Source: Asaia bogorensis (GTDB lineage: Bacteria; Pseudomonadota; Alphaproteobacteria; Acetobacterales; Acetobacteraceae). From it: a DNA stretch of 64,000 bases. The stretch is taken from positions 1 through 64,000 of the forward strand of contig CAMDGX010000001.1 in assembly GCA_945897825.1 (NCBI GenBank), written 5' to 3'. The position numbers and the translations under genes were made by a program. The notes below the pieces were generated by a model. The model searched no databases. It was not told the DNA's origin and worked only from the letters and a program-made list of their open reading frames with translations. Shown here piece by piece: positions 5,818 to 24,907 of this stretch. The first letter of the stretch is position 1. The number at the start of each line of letters is the position of its first letter.

Positions 5818-5981
5818 CTTCTTTTTGTGAACAAAAAGAAGCAAAAAAACTTTTTCCTTTGTGGTGTGGACAGGCTTGGTGCTTGCCGCCGCAGAACCAG
5901 AGGCATCACGGGCGCACATTTGTCTTGACCCGGCGCCAAGGGGATGAAGTTTTTTTGCTTCTTTTTGTTCACAAAAAGAAG
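5818..5981. repeat. Nested-hairpin inverted-repeat element, copy 1
   Basis: The 35 bp ends, 5818-5852 and 5947-5981, are perfect inverted repeats of each other. The outer 24 bp of each end is itself a near-palindrome (11 bp stem, CTTCTTTTTGT against ACAAAAAGAAG), followed inward by a C-A7-C tract. The central ~94 bp is ordinary GC-rich sequence with no gene. Related copies lie at 9584-9734 and 24774-24907; their cores are unrelated. Each end resembles an intrinsic terminator, so the element could act as a bidirectional terminator, or be a MITE-like insertion. Confidence 0.85.
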
Positions 5982-9583: not shown

Positions 9584-9734
9584 CTTCTTTTTTTGTAAAA
9601 AAAGAAGCAAAAAAACTTTGGCCATTTGGCCGGGTTCACCTTCGGGTCGCCGGCGGTCGTCTGCCTTCTGAGCGAGGCCTCTCCATTGGCCAATGGATGA
9701 AGTTTTTTTGCTTCTTTTTGTTCACAAAAAGAAG
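9584..9734. repeat. Nested-hairpin inverted-repeat element, copy 2
   Basis: The left end is 9584-9618 and the right end 9700-9734. The right end is identical to that of the copy at 5818-5981. The left hairpin differs at two stem positions, but both bases of the pair are changed (G:C to T:A), so an 11 bp stem is preserved. It sits between the 3' ends of two convergent genes, 8 bp after one stop and 13 bp before the other, as expected for a bidirectional terminator. The core is unrelated to the other copies. Confidence 0.8.
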
Positions 9735-9747
9735 ACTTCCTTCCTTT

Positions 9748-12700
9748 CTACGGCCCCACCACCACGACCAGGCTATCCATCCGCCCCGAGAGCCGATCCG
9801 TCGCGCGCACGACCCACGCGCCCGGCTGGTCGCTTTCGGCCAGGGGCAGGTGCCAGGTGACGGGTTCGGCGCCCAGCACCAGGGTTGCGGCGTAGCGCGG
9901 CGCGGGCGTGCCGTCCGGGGCGGTGACGGCCAGGCGCACGGCGGTGGAAGCGGCGGGGCTGGGGGCGGCGAGCGACAGGCGCAGGGCGGGGGGCTCGCCC
10001 GGGCGTCGCGGCAGGGCGGCGAGGACGGGGCCGGGCAGGGCGCGCGGGGTGAGCGCGATCACCGCCGGCTCGTGTCCGGAGAGGCGCAGCGCGAGGCGGT
10101 TGTCGCTGGTGGCGATGCGCGCGCCGCGGCGCAGGTCGGTGGCGGTGTGGCCGGCGGGCAGGGCGAGGACGAGGTCGGTGGTGCCGTCCGCGGCCTCGGC
10201 GCGGCGTTGCAGGCCGGCGAGCCAGACGTCGCCGTTGCGCAGGAGGCGGGTTTCGATGGCCGGCTCGGGCTGGCCGTCGGGGCGCGTCACGCGCAGCACC
10301 GGCTGGATGCGGGCGAGCAGGCCGGCGAGGGCGGGCAGGGCGGCGTCGTCGCTGTCGGGAAGGCGGGCGATGGCGCGCGCGGGGGCGAGGCCGGCGAGCT
10401 GGGGGCGGTCCAGGCGGCGGCTGCGGCCGTCGTAGAGCCCGGCCTGGCCGAGCATCAGCACGGTGCCGCCGCGGGCGGCGAAGGCGCGGATCTGGGCGGC
10501 CTCGGCGTTGGACAGCGCGGTGGTTTCGGGCAGCACCAGCAGGCGGATGTTGCCCTGGCGCAGCGCGCCGCCGGCCAGCAGGTCGGAGGTGAGCCAGCGC
10601 GGCTGCGCGCCGAGGGCGGAGAGCAGGCGGGCGGCGCGGGCGCTGGCGACGCGGTGGGGCGAGGCGAAATTCCACTCGGTTTCCGATGAGCGCTCGGCCC
10701 AGGCGGGACCGAGCGGCAGCACCGCTTCCATCCATTGGGTGCGGAAGCTGGCCTGGGAATGGAGGATGGCGATGCCGTCATGGTGCGGGCGGCTGGCGAT
10801 GAGCTGGGCGCCGATGCCGCCGGACAGCTCGTGGAAGGTGGGCGAGAGCGAGACGCCGCGCGGGCCGGCCGTGCCGTCGGCGGCGAGGATGCTGTGGCTG
10901 TCGTCCCACAGCACCACGCCGCGCCCACCCAGCAGCGCTTCCCGCCAGAAGCGGCCGGATTCGGCGGGGCCGGACGTGAAGGAGGTGGTCAGCAGCACGG
11001 TGCCGGGGCTGAGCGAGCGGATGATCTCGACGTTGTTGGCGTTGTTGTAGGGCTCGATCAGGTCGACGGCGCCGACAAGGCGGCCGTAGTCGTAGCCGCC
11101 CCAGCCGGGCACCTGGGCGCCGGCGATGCCGGAAAGCGCCGTCGGGTCGGCCTTGTGGATCGCCTCGGTGCCGGCGCGCAGCGCGCGGGCGAAGGCGATG
11201 TCCATCCAGGCTTTGAAATCAGCCCAGCCGGACCAGTTGCGGTCTTGCCGGGCCATGGCCTGGTCGGTGGTGGGGGGGATGACCGCGTCCCACGCGGCGA
11301 AGTCGCTGCCCCATTGGCGGTTGAGGGCGGCGAGGTCGCGATACTGGGTGCGCAGCCAGGCGCGGAAGCCGGCGAGCGATTCCGGGGAGAAGTCGAAATC
11401 CCAGGCGGCGGCGAGGTCGGCGATGCCGGGCTCGTCGGCCAGGTTGTAGAAATACGGGCGCCAGGGGGCGTGGTGGCGCACGGTGGCGTCCAGGCGCTCC
11501 TGGATGCGGGCGATCCAGGCGGGGTCGGACAGGCTCGGCTCGCGCAGGTTGACGGTGAGGTCGGCGGGGTTCTCGCGGCGGCGGCGCTTCGCCTCGTCGA
11601 ACATCCAGGTGACGGGGCGGTCCGGGCGCCAGCGGTGGTAGTTGGCGTAGAAGTCGGTGGCGGTGTTCTCCACGTACCAGCGCTGGTCGGCCTCGCGCAT
11701 CGGGGCCATGCGGGCGTCGACCGGGGCGGGGTCGTAGGGCGTGTCGCGGTTGCCCAGGACCTTGCCGGCGGTGACGCCGAGGGCATGGAGCGTGCGACGG
11801 CCGGCGGCGTCGCCGTCGTGCCAGTAGAGCGCGACCCAGTCGGGCCAGCCGGGCCGGGGGCGGGCGGTGAAGCTTGCCTCGGCGCGGCGCGGCGCCTGGC
11901 CGGCGAGTTCCAGCGTGGCGACGAGGCGGTTGTCCATCGCCACCGCGCGCTTCAGGTCGAGCGGGATCGCCACCTCGCGCGCGCCGCGCAGGTCGAGCGG
12001 GATGCGGCGGCGCTCGACGGTGCGGCCGAGCGTGTCGGTCCATTCGACGGACAGCGTGCCGGTGGCGGTGACCGGGGCGTCGAGGCGCCAGAGGGCGCGG
12101 GCGACGCCGCCGCCCTGGATCGCGCCCGGGGGCGGGACCAGCGTGTCGGCGGCGGCGGGCATGGACAGGCCGAGGGCGAGCAGGACGGCCAGCGCGGCGC
12201 CGCCGCGGCGCCAGCCGAGCACGACGGGCAGCGGCACCAGCGTCACCAGCATGGCCGCCGCGAGGCTCCACAGCAGCAGCGCGCCCATGCTGGCGGTGCC
12301 CGGGTGGCCGCTGGCGGCGAGCGAGCCGAAGGCGGTGGCGGTCGTCAGCGCCGAGAACAGCACGGCGCGGGCGGTCGCGGTGCCGAGGAAGCGGCGGTCG
12401 CCCGCGCGCCAGTTCATGACGAAGTAGATGTTGAACGACACACCAACCCCCAGCAGCAGTGGCAGGGCGACGATGTTGGCGAAATTCAGCGGCAGCGGCA
12501 GCAACACGATCACGAGAACGGTCAGCAGCGCGGAGGCGAGCAGCGCGCCGATCACCAGCGCGACATCGAGCGGGCGGCGCACCAGGGCCAGCAGCAGCAC
12601 CGCGATGACCACCAGCGCCCCGATCGCCGCGGTGCGGAAGGCATCGACGATGGTGCCGGCGGTCTCGACGATGGTGACGGCGGAGCCGCCGGCCTGCGGC

Positions 12701-14775
12701 GCCACGGTGCGGACCTGGGCGACGAAGGCGTTCAGCCCGGCGGCGTCGCGCGCCTCGGCCCGCGCGCTGACCTGCACGCGGATGCGCCCGTCGGGCAGGC
12801 GCCAGTCGGCGGCGAGGTCGGCCGGGATGTCGGCCAGCGTCACCGGCCCGGCCTCCAGTGCGCGGCGGAGGCGGTCGAGCTGGTCGGGCAGGAAGCGGGT
12901 GAGGGCGGCGTTGGTGGCCATCAGATGGGCGTCCGGCGCGGTGGCGAGGGTGGCCAGGGCGGCGGCGATGGCGCGCAGCGGGTCGTCCGGCGGCAGGCGG
13001 GGCAGCACGCGCTCGATCTCGGTGCGGGCGGTGGCGATGGCCAGGCGCAGGTCGGAGGGCGTCACGGGGGCGGCATCGCTGCGCGGGGCCAGGGTGGCGC
13101 CGAGGATGCCGGCGGCGTCGGCGACCAGGGGCAGCTTCGCCGCCTGGTCGGTCGGCACCAGGGAGGGCAGGCTGACCACCTCGGCGGCGAGCGGCAGGGC
13201 GCGCAGCCTTTCCATCAACGCGCTGGCGGCCTCGGGCGAGGCGACCAGGATGTCGGCGGTGTAGGGCGAGGTGAGCGGGTCGTCCATCAGGGCGCGCAGC
13301 GTGGCCATCGACTCGGCGGCCGGGTCCTTGGTGTTCAGCGGGTCGCTGTCGAAGGCGATGCGCGGGGCGAGCAGGGCGCCGGCGAGGCACAGCACGGCGA
13401 AGACGGCGACGATGGGCAGGCGCGCGCGCAGCAGCCGCGTCTCGGCGCGCGCGGCCCAGCGGTAGCCGACCTCCACCGCCTCGCCGCGCGGGCGCAGCAG
13501 GGTGAGCATGGCGGGCAGGAAGGTCAGCGTGCAGGCCAGCGCCACCAGCATGCCGACCCCGGCGATCAGCCCCAGTTCGGCCACGCCGCGGAAGCTGGTC
13601 GGCACGAAGGCGAGGAAGCCGGCGGCGGTGGCCAGGGCGGCGAGCAGGATCTGCGGGCCGACGGTCTGCATGGTCGATGCCATCGCCAGCGCGGCGTCGC
13701 CGGTGGAGAGGCGGCGCTCGCGGTAGCGGACGCAGAACTGGATGGCGAAATCGACCGCGATGCCGACGAACAGCACCGCGAAGGCCACCGATATGAGGTT
13801 CAGGGCCCCCACCGCCAGCGCCGCGAAGCCGGTGGTCAGCACCAGGCCGAGCGCCAGCGTGGCGACGATCGGCACGATCAGCCGCCAGGAGCGCACCGCC
13901 AGCACCAGCCACAGCAGCACCAGCGTGGCGCTGGCGACGATGCCGATGCCGATCCCCTCGGCGACGGTGGCGAATTCCTCGTCGGCCAGCGCCACCGGGC
14001 CGGTGACGCGCACGGTGGCGCGGCCGCTGGCCACCGGGGCGAGCGACGCGGCGGCCGCGCGCAGGGCGGCGGTGGCGCGCCCGCCCGGTTCCAGCGCGCC
14101 GTGGTCCAGCAGCACCTGGGCGAGCACCAGGCGGCGCGGTCCCGCGAGGTCGGCGAGCGAGCCGCCGAGCAGGCGCTGCCAGGAGAGCGGCGTGGGCGCG
14201 CCGGCGGCGGCATGGCCGAGCGCCTCGGCGAAGCCCTGCAACGCCGGGCGGAAGCTGTCGAGCTTCTCGCCGCGGTCGACGCCCATGGCCACCAGCGCCA
14301 GGGTGGCGAACAGGCCGCGCGCCGAGGGGTCGGAGGCGAGCTGGCCGAGGAAGGGCTGGGCGTCGATGGTCTGGTCGAGCAGGGCGGTGAGCTGGGGCTC
14401 ATCGAGGTAGAGCAGGGCGTGGCGCTGCAGGAAGGGGGCGGCGTCCGGCCGGCGGGCGAAGCGGAAATGCGCGGTGTCCGCCGACAGGCGCGCGGCCAGG
14501 GCGGCGGCGGTTTCCTCCGCCTCCTCGGGCGTGGCGCCCTCCACCACGGCGACCAGCAGGTCGGAGAATTGCGGGAATGCGCGGGCCATGGCGATCTCGC
14601 GCTGGCGCCAGGGCAATGCCGCGTCGAACAGCGCGTCGGTGTCGGTGGTGACGCCCAGGCGGGTGGCGGCGGCAAGGCCGGCGAGCGCGCCGAGCAGCAG
14701 GCCGGCGAGCACCACCAGGGCGGCGCGGCGGCGGCAGTATTCCGCCAGGGAGGCGAGCAGGTGGGCCAGCTTCAT
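9748..14775 (-). CDS. hpnN: HpnN-type RND hopanoid transporter fused to a GH42-like glycosidase domain
   Basis: Residues 1 to about 855 are an RND/MMPL transporter of the HpnN type, which moves hopanoids to the outer membrane. The typical start TDTDALFDAALPWRQRE is present, as are two sets of TM helices with large periplasmic loops (about residues 50-270 and 440-690), matching HpnN's usual ~860-880 residues. The frame then runs without a stop into a hydrophobic stretch ending in AAA-D (about 860-875) that looks like a signal peptide. An ~800-residue GH42-like beta-galactosidase fold follows: LADEPG (E1115, likely acid/base), QYRDLAALNRQWGS, and a trimerisation/GATase-like region with LLVLPETTALS. 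As a thirteenth membrane helix, that stretch would place the glycosidase in the periplasm. A GTG at 12222 could instead start a separate protein. ATG 14775 lies 13 bp after the preceding gene, in the lysS operon. Confidence 0.8.
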   Translation of the reverse strand: MKLAHLLASLAEYCRRRAALVVLAGLLLGALAGLAAATRLGVTTDTDALFDAALPWRQREIAMARAFPQFSDLLVAVVEGATPEEAEETAAALAARLSADTAHFRFARRPDAAPFLQRHALLYLDEPQLTALLDQTIDAQPFLGQLASDPSARGLFATLALVAMGVDRGEKLDSFRPALQGFAEALGHAAAGAPTPLSWQRLLGGSLADLAGPRRLVLAQVLLDHGALEPGGRATAALRAAAASLAPVASGRATVRVTGPVALADEEFATVAEGIGIGIVASATLVLLWLVLAVRSWRLIVPIVATLALGLVLTTGFAALAVGALNLISVAFAVLFVGIAVDFAIQFCVRYRERRLSTGDAALAMASTMQTVGPQILLAALATAAGFLAFVPTSFRGVAELGLIAGVGMLVALACTLTFLPAMLTLLRPRGEAVEVGYRWAARAETRLLRARLPIVAVFAVLCLAGALLAPRIAFDSDPLNTKDPAAESMATLRALMDDPLTSPYTADILVASPEAASALMERLRALPLAAEVVSLPSLVPTDQAAKLPLVADAAGILGATLAPRSDAAPVTPSDLRLAIATARTEIERVLPRLPPDDPLRAIAAALATLATAPDAHLMATNAALTRFLPDQLDRLRRALEAGPVTLADIPADLAADWRLPDGRIRVQVSARAEARDAAGLNAFVAQVRTVAPQAGGSAVTIVETAGTIVDAFRTAAIGALVVIAVLLLALVRRPLDVALVIGALLASALLTVLVIVLLPLPLNFANIVALPLLLGVGVSFNIYFVMNWRAGDRRFLGTATARAVLFSALTTATAFGSLAASGHPGTASMGALLLWSLAAAMLVTLVPLPVVLGWRRGGAALAVLLALGLSMPAAADTLVPPPGAIQGGGVARALWRLDAPVTATGTLSVEWTDTLGRTVERRRIPLDLRGAREVAIPLDLKRAVAMDNRLVATLELAGQAPRRAEASFTARPRPGWPDWVALYWHDGDAAGRRTLHALGVTAGKVLGNRDTPYDPAPVDARMAPMREADQRWYVENTATDFYANYHRWRPDRPVTWMFDEAKRRRRENPADLTVNLREPSLSDPAWIARIQERLDATVRHHAPWRPYFYNLADEPGIADLAAAWDFDFSPESLAGFRAWLRTQYRDLAALNRQWGSDFAAWDAVIPPTTDQAMARQDRNWSGWADFKAWMDIAFARALRAGTEAIHKADPTALSGIAGAQVPGWGGYDYGRLVGAVDLIEPYNNANNVEIIRSLSPGTVLLTTSFTSGPAESGRFWREALLGGRGVVLWDDSHSILAADGTAGPRGVSLSPTFHELSGGIGAQLIASRPHHDGIAILHSQASFRTQWMEAVLPLGPAWAERSSETEWNFASPHRVASARAARLLSALGAQPRWLTSDLLAGGALRQGNIRLLVLPETTALSNAEAAQIRAFAARGGTVLMLGQAGLYDGRSRRLDRPQLAGLAPARAIARLPDSDDAALPALAGLLARIQPVLRVTRPDGQPEPAIETRLLRNGDVWLAGLQRRAEAADGTTDLVLALPAGHTATDLRRGARIATSDNRLALRLSGHEPAVIALTPRALPGPVLAALPRRPGEPPALRLSLAAPSPAASTAVRLAVTAPDGTPAPRYAATLVLGAEPVTWHLPLAESDQPGAWVVRATDRLSGRMDSLVVVVGP

Positions 14776-14788
14776 CGGCGGATCGGGC

Positions 14789-16831
14789 TCATCGCTCGGC
14801 GGGCTCCGGCTGGCGGGCGCCGATGGCCAGGGCGGGCAGCAGCGGCAACAGGGTGGGCAGGTCGCGCTCGGCGACGCAGGCGAGGAACTCGGTGGCGTGC
14901 GGGGCGGGCGCGTCGGCCTCGTCGGCGCGCGGCAGGCCGGCGGCATCGAGCGGGAGGGCGGCCAGCCCGATATCGGCATAGACGCCCAGCAGCGCGGGGC
15001 CGGCGCGCCAGAAGGCGGGGTCCATCCCCTCCTGGGCGGCGAGGTCGCGCAGGCGCCAGACCGCCGAGACCCGATCGCCCGGGTGGCCGGCGGGGTCGCC
15101 GAAGCCGAGCAGCACCGAGCCCACGCGACGGAACGGGATCGCGGCCCGTCCGGCCTCGCCCCAGACCAGCCCGTCCGCGGCCGGCGGCGGCGTGGCGCCG
15201 AGGGCGGCATAGCGGGCGCGGGCGTCGTCGTTCCAGGCATCGGGGGCAACGCGGCCCGGCCGCACCAGGCGCCAGATCGCCACCAGCGCCACCAGAACGG
15301 CCAGCGCCACGCTGGCGCGCACCGAATTCGGCACCGCCGGGGACAGCACCACCTGCCACCAGGAGGTCTTGGCGAGCTGGGCCAGCCGCGGCTCGTAGGT
15401 GGCCAGCACCACCACCGAGGCGGCCAGCAGCAGCGGGGCGGCGGCGCGCCGCGCGGTCAGCGGGCCGGACAGCAGGCGGGCGTGGCGGTAGAACAGCCGG
15501 CGGAACGGCGCCAGCAGCAGGGAGCAGCCGACCAGCAGCGCCGGGAGCCAGAAATGCTCGCCGCGCACCGCAGTGAACGCCGCGCCCAGCAGCAGCAGCC
15601 CGATGGTCAGCCCCCAGGCGAGCGTCACGCGGCGGGTGAGCGCGAAGGACATCACCACCAGGGCCGCGCCGATCAGGCTGGGGACGAACTCGCTGGCCGG
15701 GTGGAACAGCGCCTCCGCCCAGGGCGGCAGGCTCCAGGCCGGGGCGATCCAGGAATAGTCGCCCAGCGCGTCCATGGCCCCCAGCGCCAGCAGCAGCGCG
15801 CCGCACAGCCCGACCGCGCCGGCCACGGCGGCGACCTCGAAATCCGGCTGGCTCCAGCGCCCCAGCGTCTGCACGCCGCGCATCGTGGCGGTGCCGGCCA
15901 GCAGGAAGCGGCCGCGCAGCAGCACCTCGTTGCCGGCGAACAGGGCGCCGGCCAGGAACAGCGGCACGATGTAGTAGAACAGCCGGAACACCACGATCGC
16001 GCCGACGATCGACGGCGCATCGAGCCAGGGCGACAGGCCGAGCAGCATCGCGGTGTCGAACACGCCTAGCCCGCCCGGCACGTTGGCCAGCAGCCCCGCC
16101 GTGTAGGCCGCGACATAGACGCCGAGCACCACGATGAAGGTCAGCCCCGGCGCCTCGGGCAGCAGGGCGTGGAAGATCGCCGCCGTCACCACCACGTCGA
16201 TCGTGGCCAGCGCCGTCTGCGCGATGGCCATGCGCCAGGACGGCAGTTCCACCTCGTGGCCGAACATCCGCACCGTGCCGACCAGGCGCGACAGCGCGAC
16301 ATACACCCCCACCAGCGCCAGCAGCACCGCGCCCAGCACGTGCATCATCCAGGCCGGCAGGCGCGAGCCTAGCACCGGCAGCACATGCGGCTCCACCAGC
16401 AGCACGCCGCCGCCCAGCACCAGCCCGCCGAGGATGAAGGTGAGCGAGCAGAACGCCACCACCTTGCCGATCTGCAGCGGCGTCAGCCCCCATTGCGCAT
16501 AGAGCCGGTAGCGCACCGCCGCCCCCGAGACGGCTGCGAAGCCCAGGTTGTGCGCCAGCGTGTAGGCGCAGAACGAGGCAAAGGCGACGCGCCCGTAGCT
16601 GACCGCCCGCCCGGCATAGATGGTGCCCAGCCGGTCGTAGAGCGTCAGGATCGCATAGGCCAGCAGCGTCCAGCCGAAGGCCGCCCACAGGCGCGAGGAC
16701 GGGATGGCGGCCAACGCCGCCTTGATGTCCGCCAGGCTCAGGCTGCGGAACTCGTTGAACACCACGTAGAGCGCGCCCACCAGCAGGGCGAGGCCCAGCA
16801 CGGCGGGCAGGTGGCGCAGCCAGGGCTTCAC
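14789..16831 (-). CDS. MprF-like membrane protein (lysyl-phosphatidylglycerol synthase family), C-terminally truncated
   Basis: The first ~520 residues are the polytopic part of the MprF/UPF0104 family (about 12-14 helices; NVPGGLGVFD is the conserved loop of this family), which flips aminoacylated lipid. After it come ~150 residues matching only the first half of the catalytic DUF2156 (GNAT-like) domain: GFGDPAGHPGD and LLGVYADIGLAALPL. The second half, which holds the lysyl-tRNA site in full-length MprF (~840 residues), is missing. The protein stops at 680 residues and no continuation is found in the other frames. The start is GTG 16831, 11 bp after the lysS stop. Its place directly after the lysyl-tRNA synthetase gene fits a role in lipid lysylation, but the lost acceptor half argues for a flippase or altered function. 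Confidence 0.75.
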   Translation of the reverse strand: MKPWLRHLPAVLGLALLVGALYVVFNEFRSLSLADIKAALAAIPSSRLWAAFGWTLLAYAILTLYDRLGTIYAGRAVSYGRVAFASFCAYTLAHNLGFAAVSGAAVRYRLYAQWGLTPLQIGKVVAFCSLTFILGGLVLGGGVLLVEPHVLPVLGSRLPAWMMHVLGAVLLALVGVYVALSRLVGTVRMFGHEVELPSWRMAIAQTALATIDVVVTAAIFHALLPEAPGLTFIVVLGVYVAAYTAGLLANVPGGLGVFDTAMLLGLSPWLDAPSIVGAIVVFRLFYYIVPLFLAGALFAGNEVLLRGRFLLAGTATMRGVQTLGRWSQPDFEVAAVAGAVGLCGALLLALGAMDALGDYSWIAPAWSLPPWAEALFHPASEFVPSLIGAALVVMSFALTRRVTLAWGLTIGLLLLGAAFTAVRGEHFWLPALLVGCSLLLAPFRRLFYRHARLLSGPLTARRAAAPLLLAASVVVLATYEPRLAQLAKTSWWQVVLSPAVPNSVRASVALAVLVALVAIWRLVRPGRVAPDAWNDDARARYAALGATPPPAADGLVWGEAGRAAIPFRRVGSVLLGFGDPAGHPGDRVSAVWRLRDLAAQEGMDPAFWRAGPALLGVYADIGLAALPLDAAGLPRADEADAPAPHATEFLACVAERDLPTLLPLLPALAIGARQPEPAER

Positions 16832-16842
16832 GGCGCGCGCCC

Positions 16843-18453
16843 TCAGGTCTCCGCGCGCCCGCTGGCGTCCTGTTCCAGTGCGCCATCGATCAGCGCGACC
16901 GTCTCCGCGATGCCGTACAGCGCGATGAACTGGCCGAAGCGCGGCCCCTCCTGCTGGCCGAGCAGCACCTGATAGAGGCAGCCGAACCAGGCACGCAATT
17001 CCGGGAAGGGGTGGCGCTTGCCGACCTCGTACAGCACGTCCTGGATCGCCTCGGCGGCGGCGTCGGGCGCAAGCTTGCCCAGCTCCGCCCGCAGGTCGGC
17101 CAGGGCCGCGCGCTCGGTGTCGTCCGGGGCGCGGAACTGCTTGTTCGGGCGGACGAAATCCCGGTAGTAGGCCAGTGCGTATTCCACCAGCCGGGCCAGC
17201 AGCGGCATGTCCGCGGGCGTGGCGGCCGCGTTGTAGCGGCGGATGAAGCCCCACAGGATGTCCGGCGTGTCGGCGTTCACCACGCTGGCGAGGTTCAGCA
17301 GCATGGCGAAGGACAGCGGCGAGTGGGCGTCCTGCGGGATGCGGCCGTCGTGGATGTGCCAGGCGGGGTTGGCCGGCTGCTCGTGCGCCTGCTGGCCGTG
17401 GCCCTTCAGTGCGTTTGCGATGTACTCGTCCACCGCCTTCGGGATCACGTCGAAATACAGCCGCTTGGCCCGCTGCGGCTGGTTGAACATGTACTGGCTA
17501 AGCGATTCCGGCGGGGCGTAGCGCAGCCATTCCTCGACGCTCAGGCCGTTGCCCTTGCTCTTGGAGATCTTCTGCGCCTGCTCGTCGAGGAACAGCTCGT
17601 AGGTGAATCCGACCGGGGGTTGGCTGCCCAGGATGCGGCAGATGGCGCCCGAGAGCTTCACGCTGTCGATCAAATCCTTGCCCGACATCTCGTAGTCGAC
17701 GCCCAGCGCGTGCCAGCGCATCGCCCAGTCGGCCTTCCACTGGCACTTGCCGCCGCCGCCCAGGATGCAGGTTTCGAAGCGCGCGCCGCTGTCGGGGTCG
17801 GTCCAGGCGACCATGCCGGTTTCGGTATCCAGCACGTCGAGCTTCACCTGCATCACCACGCCGGTCTCGGGATGGATCGGCAGGATCGGCGAATAGGTGG
17901 CGCGGCGGTCCGGCCCCAGCGTCGGCAGGATGACGTTCACGATCGCGTCGTGCTTGCGCAGGATCTGGCGCAGCGCGTCGTCGAACCGGCCGGAGGTGTA
18001 GTAGTCGGTGGAGGAGGCGAACTCGTATTCGAAGCCGAAGCTGTCGAGGAAGGATTGCAGCCGCGCGTTGTTGTGCGCGCCGAAGCTGGGGTGGGTGCCG
18101 AACGGGTCCGGGATGCGGGTCAGCGGCTTGCCGAGATGGGTGGCCAGCATCTCCTTGTGCGGCACGTTGTCCGGCACCTTGCGCAGCCCGTCCATGTCGT
18201 CGCTGAAGGCGAGCAGCTTGCTCGGCAGCCCGCTCAGCTCGGTGAAGGCGCGCCGCACCCAGGAGGTGCGGGCCACTTCGCCGAAGGTGCCGATATGCGG
18301 CAGGCCGGAGGGGCCGTAGCCGGTTTCGAACAGGGCGTGCGATTTGCCGGTTTTCGCCATGCGCTCGACCAGCTTCTGCGCCTCCTCGAAGGGCCAGGAG
18401 CGGGGGATGGCGGGGGGGGTGGCAGGGCCAGGGTCGGACATGGGGGCTGACAT
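16843..18453 (-). CDS. lysS: Lysine--tRNA ligase, class I
   Basis: Charges tRNA-Lys with lysine in the cytoplasm. This is the class I (archaeal-type) enzyme found in many alphaproteobacteria: the HIGH-type motif is [10 protein letters not shown] (about residues 48-57) and the KMSKS-type loop is KISKSKG near residue 300. [15 protein letters not shown] and GKDLIDSV are also family landmarks. Its 536 residues are normal. ATG 18453 is used; a second ATG four codons later is possible and no clear ribosome site separates them. It is the first gene of a minus-strand run with the MprF-like gene and the HpnN fusion, a suggestive link because lysyl-tRNA is the MprF substrate. It is divergent from the helicase gene, with 124 bp between them. 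Confidence 0.96.
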
Positions 18454-24773: not shown

Positions 24774-24907
24774 CTTCTTTTTGTGAACAAAAAGAAGCAA
24801 AAAAACTTTTCCCATTTGCCGCCGCCCAAACGGCCGAAAACGGGGCGGTGTTGTGCCGCTCGCGTATGGACGAAGTGTTTTTGGTTCTTTTTGTTCACAA
24901 AAAGAAC
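24774..24907. repeat. Nested-hairpin inverted-repeat element, copy 3
   Basis: The left end, 24774-24808, is identical to the copy at 5818. The right end, 24873-24907, has three differences, two of which are the outermost pair of its hairpin changed together (C:G to G:C), so the stem is intact. The core (~64 bp) is shorter and unrelated. The right hairpin ends 11 bp before the radA start codon, so it lies inside that gene's ribosome-binding region. Confidence 0.8.

Follow-up and report, generated by a model that had tools for sequence, protein, structure and literature searches.

We found that the gene for the hopanoid transporter HpnN runs on in frame into a predicted glycosidase related to glycoside hydrolase family 42 (GH42) in the window, a 64,000-nucleotide stretch of Asaia bogorensis DNA (contig CAMDGX010000001.1, positions 1 to 64,000), and that this fusion is real and genus-wide. 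The fused gene combines known parts in a new arrangement and, judging from sequence comparisons, probably encodes a polyprotein that is cut by signal peptidase. That the two genes have stayed side by side in seven genera and encode a single protein in another suggests a testable partner of HpnN. The gene is moreover an example of how neighbouring genes can merge to give what is probably a polyprotein containing an internal signal peptide, which to our knowledge is rare in bacteria.

The fused gene and its surroundings

Translation gives a single frame of 1675 codons on the minus strand of the window (9748-14775), from an ATG at 14775 to a TAG stop at 9748-9750. Residues 1-852 (12220-14775, minus strand) form the RND/MMPL hopanoid transporter HpnN: TIGR03480 matches residues 7-855 with 902.5 bits, above the curated cut-off of 751.85 and over model positions 2-858 of 862, and residues 5-857 align by phmmer with the solved HpnN structures 5khn and 6wu0 (E 1.4e-141). 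Because the narrower HpnN model NF052374 scores 801.3 bits over model positions 3-857 of 858, below its curated cut-off of 1100, the transporter part is filed by sequence match under TIGR03480 rather than under this equivalog. The HpnN match ends at about residue 855 and the reading frame runs on, which indicates a transporter of normal length followed by an extension. The original prediction of a full-length transporter of about 855 residues, fused in frame to a GH42-like domain, is thus borne out in both respects.

The joint (residues 853-876; 12148-12219, minus strand) looks like a signal-peptidase-I substrate, with the n-region LGWRR, an h-region and then PAAA/D, where the slash marks the site placed by eye. 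The remainder, residues 877-1675 (9751-12147, minus strand), is the GH42-related part (hereafter the GH part), recognized by PF02449, by an AlphaFold2 model and by its likeness to the GH42 structure 3tts. The PF02449 match is partial, covering residues 1127-1210 of the whole fusion with 30.7 bits against a cut-off of 21, and rises to 32.6 bits on the isolated GH part. A search of NCBIfam with the GH parts of the window and of three other loci matched no family.

Upstream of the fusion, a lysine--tRNA ligase gene (NF001968, 827 bits) and an MprF-like gene stand in a row with it (14789-18453, minus strand), and the same row is found in five other genomes of the genus (L122-L126); it is a possible membrane-lipid operon. 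The MprF-like gene (14789-16810, minus strand, start approximate) matches positions 4-623 of the 841 of NF033480 with 329 bits against a cut-off of 600, leaving about 218 model positions of the synthase end unmatched, and the copy in G001 is alike (312.5 bits, 6-623). Signals in a scan for promoters and terminators were no more frequent than in shuffled sequences. The 18-mer AAAGAAGCAAAAAAACTT occurs five times in the window (mean of 0.00 in shuffles; 5835-5964, 9601-9717 and 24791-24808) and 101 times in the genome. Its copies form, several times, inverted pairs about 100 nt apart, resembling a small dispersed element, and one such pair lies directly behind the stop of the fusion gene.

The fusion is shared across the genus

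The fusion was matched in eight of the nine genomes of the window's genus, and all eight are open through the joint, with no stop codon; the genome without a match, G007, is 68% complete. Identity to the fusion of the window is 74-76% in G001, G002, G003, G004, G006 and G008. The copy in G002 ends at a contig end at residue 1484, and that of G005 appears as two BLAST pieces (80% and 67% identity) within one open frame, the region 877-969 being absent. A second HpnN match at E 0.001 was found in none of the eight fused genomes, so that the fused protein must be their HpnN, as far as the assemblies go.

We compared the ratio of nonsynonymous to synonymous change (pN/pS) along the gene. In two close pairs of genomes it is 0.12 for HpnN, 0.33 for the joint, 0.19 for the next region, 0.11 for the barrel and 0.34 for the C-terminal part; in all pairs of five genomes the corresponding values are 0.30, 0.54, 0.31, 0.42 and 0.60. 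The joint is taken here as residues 853-881, with 10 nonsynonymous and 15 synonymous differences in the two close pairs.

An artefact, be it an error in sequencing or a stop codon lost very recently in the strain of the window, has no point in its favour among our results and is contradicted by the open joint of the seven other matching genomes at the identities given above; we consider it next to impossible, and an error of sequencing or assembly is rejected. The recent stop-codon loss that had been put forward for this gene is also refuted by its split relatives, described below, in which the GH gene is off-frame in 18 of 18 cases. Both arrangements that the original prediction had proposed to look for in relatives were found: the same fusion in the eight genomes of the genus, and hpnN followed by a separate GH gene in 18 genomes of seven other genera.

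Origin from two adjoining genes

Of the family's 397 genomes, 65 carry a match to the GH part, eight in the window's genus and 57 elsewhere; all of the 57 except G117 (E 1.9e-5) were taken on to the comparison of loci, without the weak second matches G162:C90, G012:C141, G193:C183 and G122:C471. In 18 of the 57 genomes outside the genus, a separate GH gene lies directly behind hpnN. These belong to seven genera (g5, g21, g76, g79, g91, g113 and g122), and among the carriers of the split pair is an isolate, Limobrevibacterium gyesilva RN2-1. Adjacency was counted only when both genes share a contig, and contig ends may hide further pairs. The GH frame is shifted in the same way relative to hpnN in all 18. 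In 15 of them a candidate GH start and the hpnN stop share 4 nt (ATGA, GTGA or TTGA), and in the others the first candidate start lies behind the stop, 2 nt away in G269 and G028 and 35 nt away in G098. Furthermore, in seven of the 18 the pair is followed, as in the window, by a small gene and glnD in the same order, and in six of these seven by mutS as well. In G195 (L096:5250-7568) the GH gene behind hpnN is in three pieces with stops or frame changes, and may be decaying or misassembled.

Since the frames of hpnN and the GH gene differ in all 18 split relatives, loss of a stop codon alone could not have fused them and an indel was needed; on this comparison of sequences, the fusion is the derived state, reached via a frame-changing indel. 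The tree groups the fused copies in a single clade (SH-aLRT 100), and five of the eight sequences are close to one another. A first tree required four changes of hpnN-GH adjacency. However, an approximately unbiased (AU) test, run without L070, L078, L079 and L090 and without the eight rows from outside the family, did not reject a single origin of the adjacency (p value = 0.77). Recurrence of the pairing is therefore not claimed, and repeated independent pairing was dropped as proof of a functional link. The first tree had L062, whose contig begins inside the gene, labelled as non-adjacent; it was relabelled, since L098, another contig of the same genome, has hpnN. The simplest history consistent with these sequences would be that hpnN and the GH gene became neighbours once, stayed so in several genera, and were joined by a single indel at their border in the ancestor of the window's genus.

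Fold and predicted catalytic residues of the GH part

The AlphaFold2 model of residues 877-1675, built from 41 sequences, has a mean pLDDT of 92.7 and begins with a region of beta strands (residues 877-969; 11869-12147, minus strand), the region that is missing in G005. The two best Foldseek matches are the GH167 enzyme 9whd (E 2.4e-22) and the exo-carrageenase 6ptm, titled GH42 (E 2.2e-21), at 12-14% identity. By VIA-align the GH42 enzyme 3tts reaches a Z score of 24.1 (524 residues, 3.8 A) and GH164 22.6, and the GlmA glucosaminidases lie lower, at 18.2-19.7 (19.7 for 5gsl and 18.5 for 6jow). The stretch behind the acid/base residue also aligns with GH42 enzymes by sequence.

We examined residue conservation in 57 of 68 loci, leaving out 11 short or cut ones, including the adjacent L095, L096 and L098. 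Alignment A1 comprises 26 of these 57 loci, and alignment A2 the window and a hand-picked 40 of 80 loci; a PF02449 match (E 0.001) is found in 39 of the 41 members of A2. The pair Asp1114-Glu1115 behind barrel strand 4 (11431-11436, minus strand), of which Glu1115 is the predicted acid/base, is invariant in 57/57 and 41/41 sequences, and so is Glu1241 at barrel strand 6 (11053-11055, minus strand). With strands counted on the predicted model, the strand ends examined show five acids invariant in 41/41: Glu1036 and Asp1041 (strand 3), Asp1114 and Glu1115 (strand 4) and Glu1241 (strand 6). At the end of strand 7, the place of the nucleophile in GH42 and GlmA, none of the acids is invariant among the 41 sequences; Thr1264 alone is, and Glu1272, seven residues past the strand, is kept in 34 of 41. 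Catalytic activity itself is therefore uncertain, and we regard the GH part as a predicted enzyme of the GH42/GH35-type fold whose activity remains uncertain.

PMC6566704, which also identifies 5gsl, 5gsm and 6jow as GlmA, describes GH42 and GH35 enzymes as carrying Asn-Glu at strand 4, and GlmA as carrying Asp-Glu instead. According to the same source, the Asp of GlmA reads the 2-amino group, a D178N mutant is inactive, and Glu306, 127 residues past the acid/base, contributes to activity (PMC6566704). Glu1241 sits 126 residues past Glu1115, a likeness in spacing that may be due to chance. A GH42 assignment is rejected, as Asp-Glu replaces Asn-Glu in 41/41 sequences and no invariant acid stands at the strand-7 nucleophile position, even though the Pfam cut-off is exceeded. 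Assignment to GlmA (GH35) agrees with the Asp-Glu pair (41/41) and is rejected on the same strand-7 position. By sequence and predicted structure, then, the GH part is filed under neither GH42 nor GlmA; we place it in a family that is related to GH42 and whose catalytic layout is unsettled.

Cleavage, tether or internal start at the joint

The split GH proteins start with a signal-peptide-like stretch, as tabulated for 11 of the 18 split pairs, and a comparable stretch is retained in the fused genomes. All eight show a positive n-region (WRR, WKR and similar), an h-region and 18-20 residues to the site, with Ala at -1 and Ala, Gly or Ser at -3, while position -2 is free (Ala, Gly, Trp, His or Gln). 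Even G005 shows SHA/A at the joint in spite of lacking the region 877-969. Sites were placed by eye. The residues conform to the (-3,-1) rule for signal-peptidase sites, and in 8/8 genomes, again by eye, an internal signal-peptide-like stretch of this kind separates the membrane protein from the predicted exported domain, the layout of an FbcH-like polyprotein.

The last helix of HpnN ends in the cytoplasm, and because of this topology the GH part is predicted to lie in the periplasm. The original prediction of a periplasmic glycosidase, brought there by a former signal peptide acting as a 13th membrane helix, is supported for the location and for the presence of a signal-peptide-like stretch. 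However, this stretch is more than a remnant, its features being kept in 8/8 genomes by eye, and a helix is only one of two readings, with the (-3,-1) residues favouring cleavage. Because these residues are conserved, the sequences compared lead us to prefer a cut by signal peptidase I to retention as a 13th membrane helix.

The uncut alternative, in which the old signal peptide persists as that helix and keeps a bifunctional enzyme tethered beside the transporter, is a serious contender that we nevertheless hold to be the less probable one. Compatible with it are a spacing of 18-20 residues between the last positive residue and the site, where the 11 tabulated split relatives have 14-21, and the retention of the fusion in 8/8 matching genomes. 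The best 19-residue hydropathy of the joint is 1.35-2.08, and the stretch is long enough to remain an anchor, which counts against cleavage. Moreover, Ala is frequent in this GC-rich genome and five of the eight sequences belong to one close clade, both of which count against reading the residues at -1 and -3 as a site. A tether, however, needs no Ala-x-Ala, and yet signal-peptidase-type residues are kept in 8/8 while position -2 and the h-region vary. A model of the junction, compatible with either reading, has a pTM of 0.52, with residues 866-875 around the site at pLDDT below 50. A separate GH protein could also arise by internal initiation in the fused frame: two in-frame starts are common to 8/8 genomes, an ATG at -69 and a GTG at -18 relative to the end of the HpnN match, and G003 alone has in addition a GTG at +27 and a TTG at +36 behind a Shine-Dalgarno-like motif. 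Both shared starts, however, fall within the last part of HpnN, a Shine-Dalgarno-like motif precedes either of them in 0/8 genomes, and the eight have no start codon in common from -3 to +75. The GTG at 12222, earlier named as a candidate internal start, is ATC in G002 and is rejected as a conserved one. We judge internal initiation to be improbable.

We thus lean, with somewhat better than even confidence, towards one gene made from two, encoding a polyprotein that signal peptidase I cuts into HpnN and a periplasmic enzyme, probably an amino-sugar exo-glycosidase. Comparison with the split relatives shows that in the ancestor of the genus an indel at the border of hpnN and an adjoining secreted GH42-related gene merged the two frames. 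The old GH signal peptide, directly behind the last helix of HpnN, would then take the enzyme across the inner membrane, and signal peptidase I would cut the conserved Ala-x-Ala-type site, yielding HpnN and a periplasmic enzyme synthesized 1:1. These two products would have masses of about 91 and 86 kDa, against about 177 kDa for the uncut protein. The enzyme would probably be an exo-acting glycosidase of GH35/GH42 fold preferring an amino sugar, and its substrate might perhaps be the glucosamine head group of bacteriohopanetetrol (BHT) or another envelope glycan.

Relation to hopanoids

Sequence matches suggest that the window's genus can probably make hopanoids: squalene-hopene cyclase is matched in eight of nine genomes, seven over the cut-off, HpnK is over the cut-off in eight of nine and HpnI in seven of nine. 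The HpnK match contains one in-frame TAG in G000 (C49:387-1190), G001, G003, G004, G006 and G008, which may simply mark where a shorter gene really stops. As stated in PMC12583986, HpnI and HpnK make BHT-glucosamine; in some alphaproteobacteria this compound accounts for as much as 90% of the bacteriohopanepolyols.

Next to these matches in the genus, which agree with the earlier proposal of an enzyme acting on glycosylated hopanoids, stands the wider distribution of the GH family, which does not. HpnI scores over the cut-off in 34 of the 39 genomes that have the GH part and in 17 of the 22 that lack it, no clear difference, and HpnK in 29 of 31 genomes, being absent in G002 (with GH) and G035 (without GH). 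Neither separates genomes with and without the GH part, and both were discarded as markers of its substrate. Of 18 named genomes that carry the GH part, from within the family and beyond it, seven have HpnN over the cut-off and six HpnK. HpnN is below the cut-off or missing in the remaining 11 (ten acidobacterial genomes and Desertibaculum), and HpnK in 12. Since the GH part is also seen where neither HpnN nor HpnK exceeds the cut-off, the family probably did not start out on hopanoids, if it acts on them at all. From these sequence comparisons, glucosaminyl-hopanoids are nevertheless a possible target.

Whether the GH part acts instead on an envelope or foreign glycan unrelated to hopanoids, its pairing with hpnN being an accident of operon history, is in our estimate an evenly balanced question. 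This explanation agrees with the gaps in HpnN and HpnK among the 18 named genomes, and with Reyranella soli (G422) and Rhodospirillales URHD0017 (G423), which have the GH part and HpnN without an HpnK match. Likewise, HpnN lies beside the GH gene in none of the placed named loci outside the family (acidobacterial, Reyranella soli and Desertibaculum), and other neighbours are seen away from hpnN: of 83 clustered loci, 13 (for the most part proteobacterial) have a beta-helix gene within 6 kb of the GH gene and 10 (acidobacterial) have an M28 peptidase there, each identified from one representative. The single origin of adjacency allowed by the AU test (p value = 0.77) fits as well. On the other hand, the adjacency was kept in seven other genera over long divergence and later fixed as a fusion, and 14 of the 18 named genomes have some HpnK-like match, although eight of these only below the cut-off.

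The most specific version of a hopanoid role is a periplasmic glucosaminidase with a non-GH42 catalytic layout that would remove or remodel the glucosamine head group of BHT as or after HpnN hands the lipid over, held by the polyprotein at a fixed ratio to the transporter; we consider it unlikely. Hopanoid head groups vary widely, and we are not aware of an enzyme that would trim them once the lipid has been transported. If real, such a glucosaminidase would act in the turnover of these head groups.

Comparison with known systems

In the titles and opening lines of abstracts retrieved on HpnN with hopanoids or glycosidases, with few subscription journals covered, we found no fusion or pairing of HpnN with a glycosidase, and a search for literature joining hopanoid, glycoside hydrolase and HpnI returned none. 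The transporter part resembles known HpnN proteins (TIGR03480; 5khn and 6wu0) over its full length, with 902.5 bits and an alignment over residues 5-857, and the fusion differs from them in carrying 820 further residues.

The GH part shares with GH42 beta-galactosidases (PF02449; 3tts, 4oif and 4uni) the fold, the strand-4 acid/base Glu and, aligned by profile, the motif behind the acid/base and a stretch of the second domain. Unlike them, it has Asp-Glu for Asn-Glu and no invariant strand-7 acid, at 12-16% identity. With the exo-beta-D-glucosaminidase GlmA (5gsl, 5gsm and 6jow, and 8oug by its title) it has in common the fold (Z 18.2-19.7), the Asp-Glu pair, which in GlmA reads the 2-amino group, and a further Glu 126-127 residues past the acid/base; however, Glu347, the strand-7 nucleophile of GlmA, has no invariant counterpart. 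The GH167 enzyme 9whd and the carrageenase 6ptm, the best two Foldseek matches, were compared by fold and are more distant, with 12-14% identity and Z scores of 18.7 and 19.0, lower than for GH42.

FbcH of Bradyrhizobium japonicum is a cytochrome b/c1 polyprotein that is cleaved. The proteins involved are different, and cleavage is established for FbcH and proposed for the fusion described here, but in both a single gene encodes an integral membrane protein and a domain for export, linked through a signal peptide or a stretch that looks like one.
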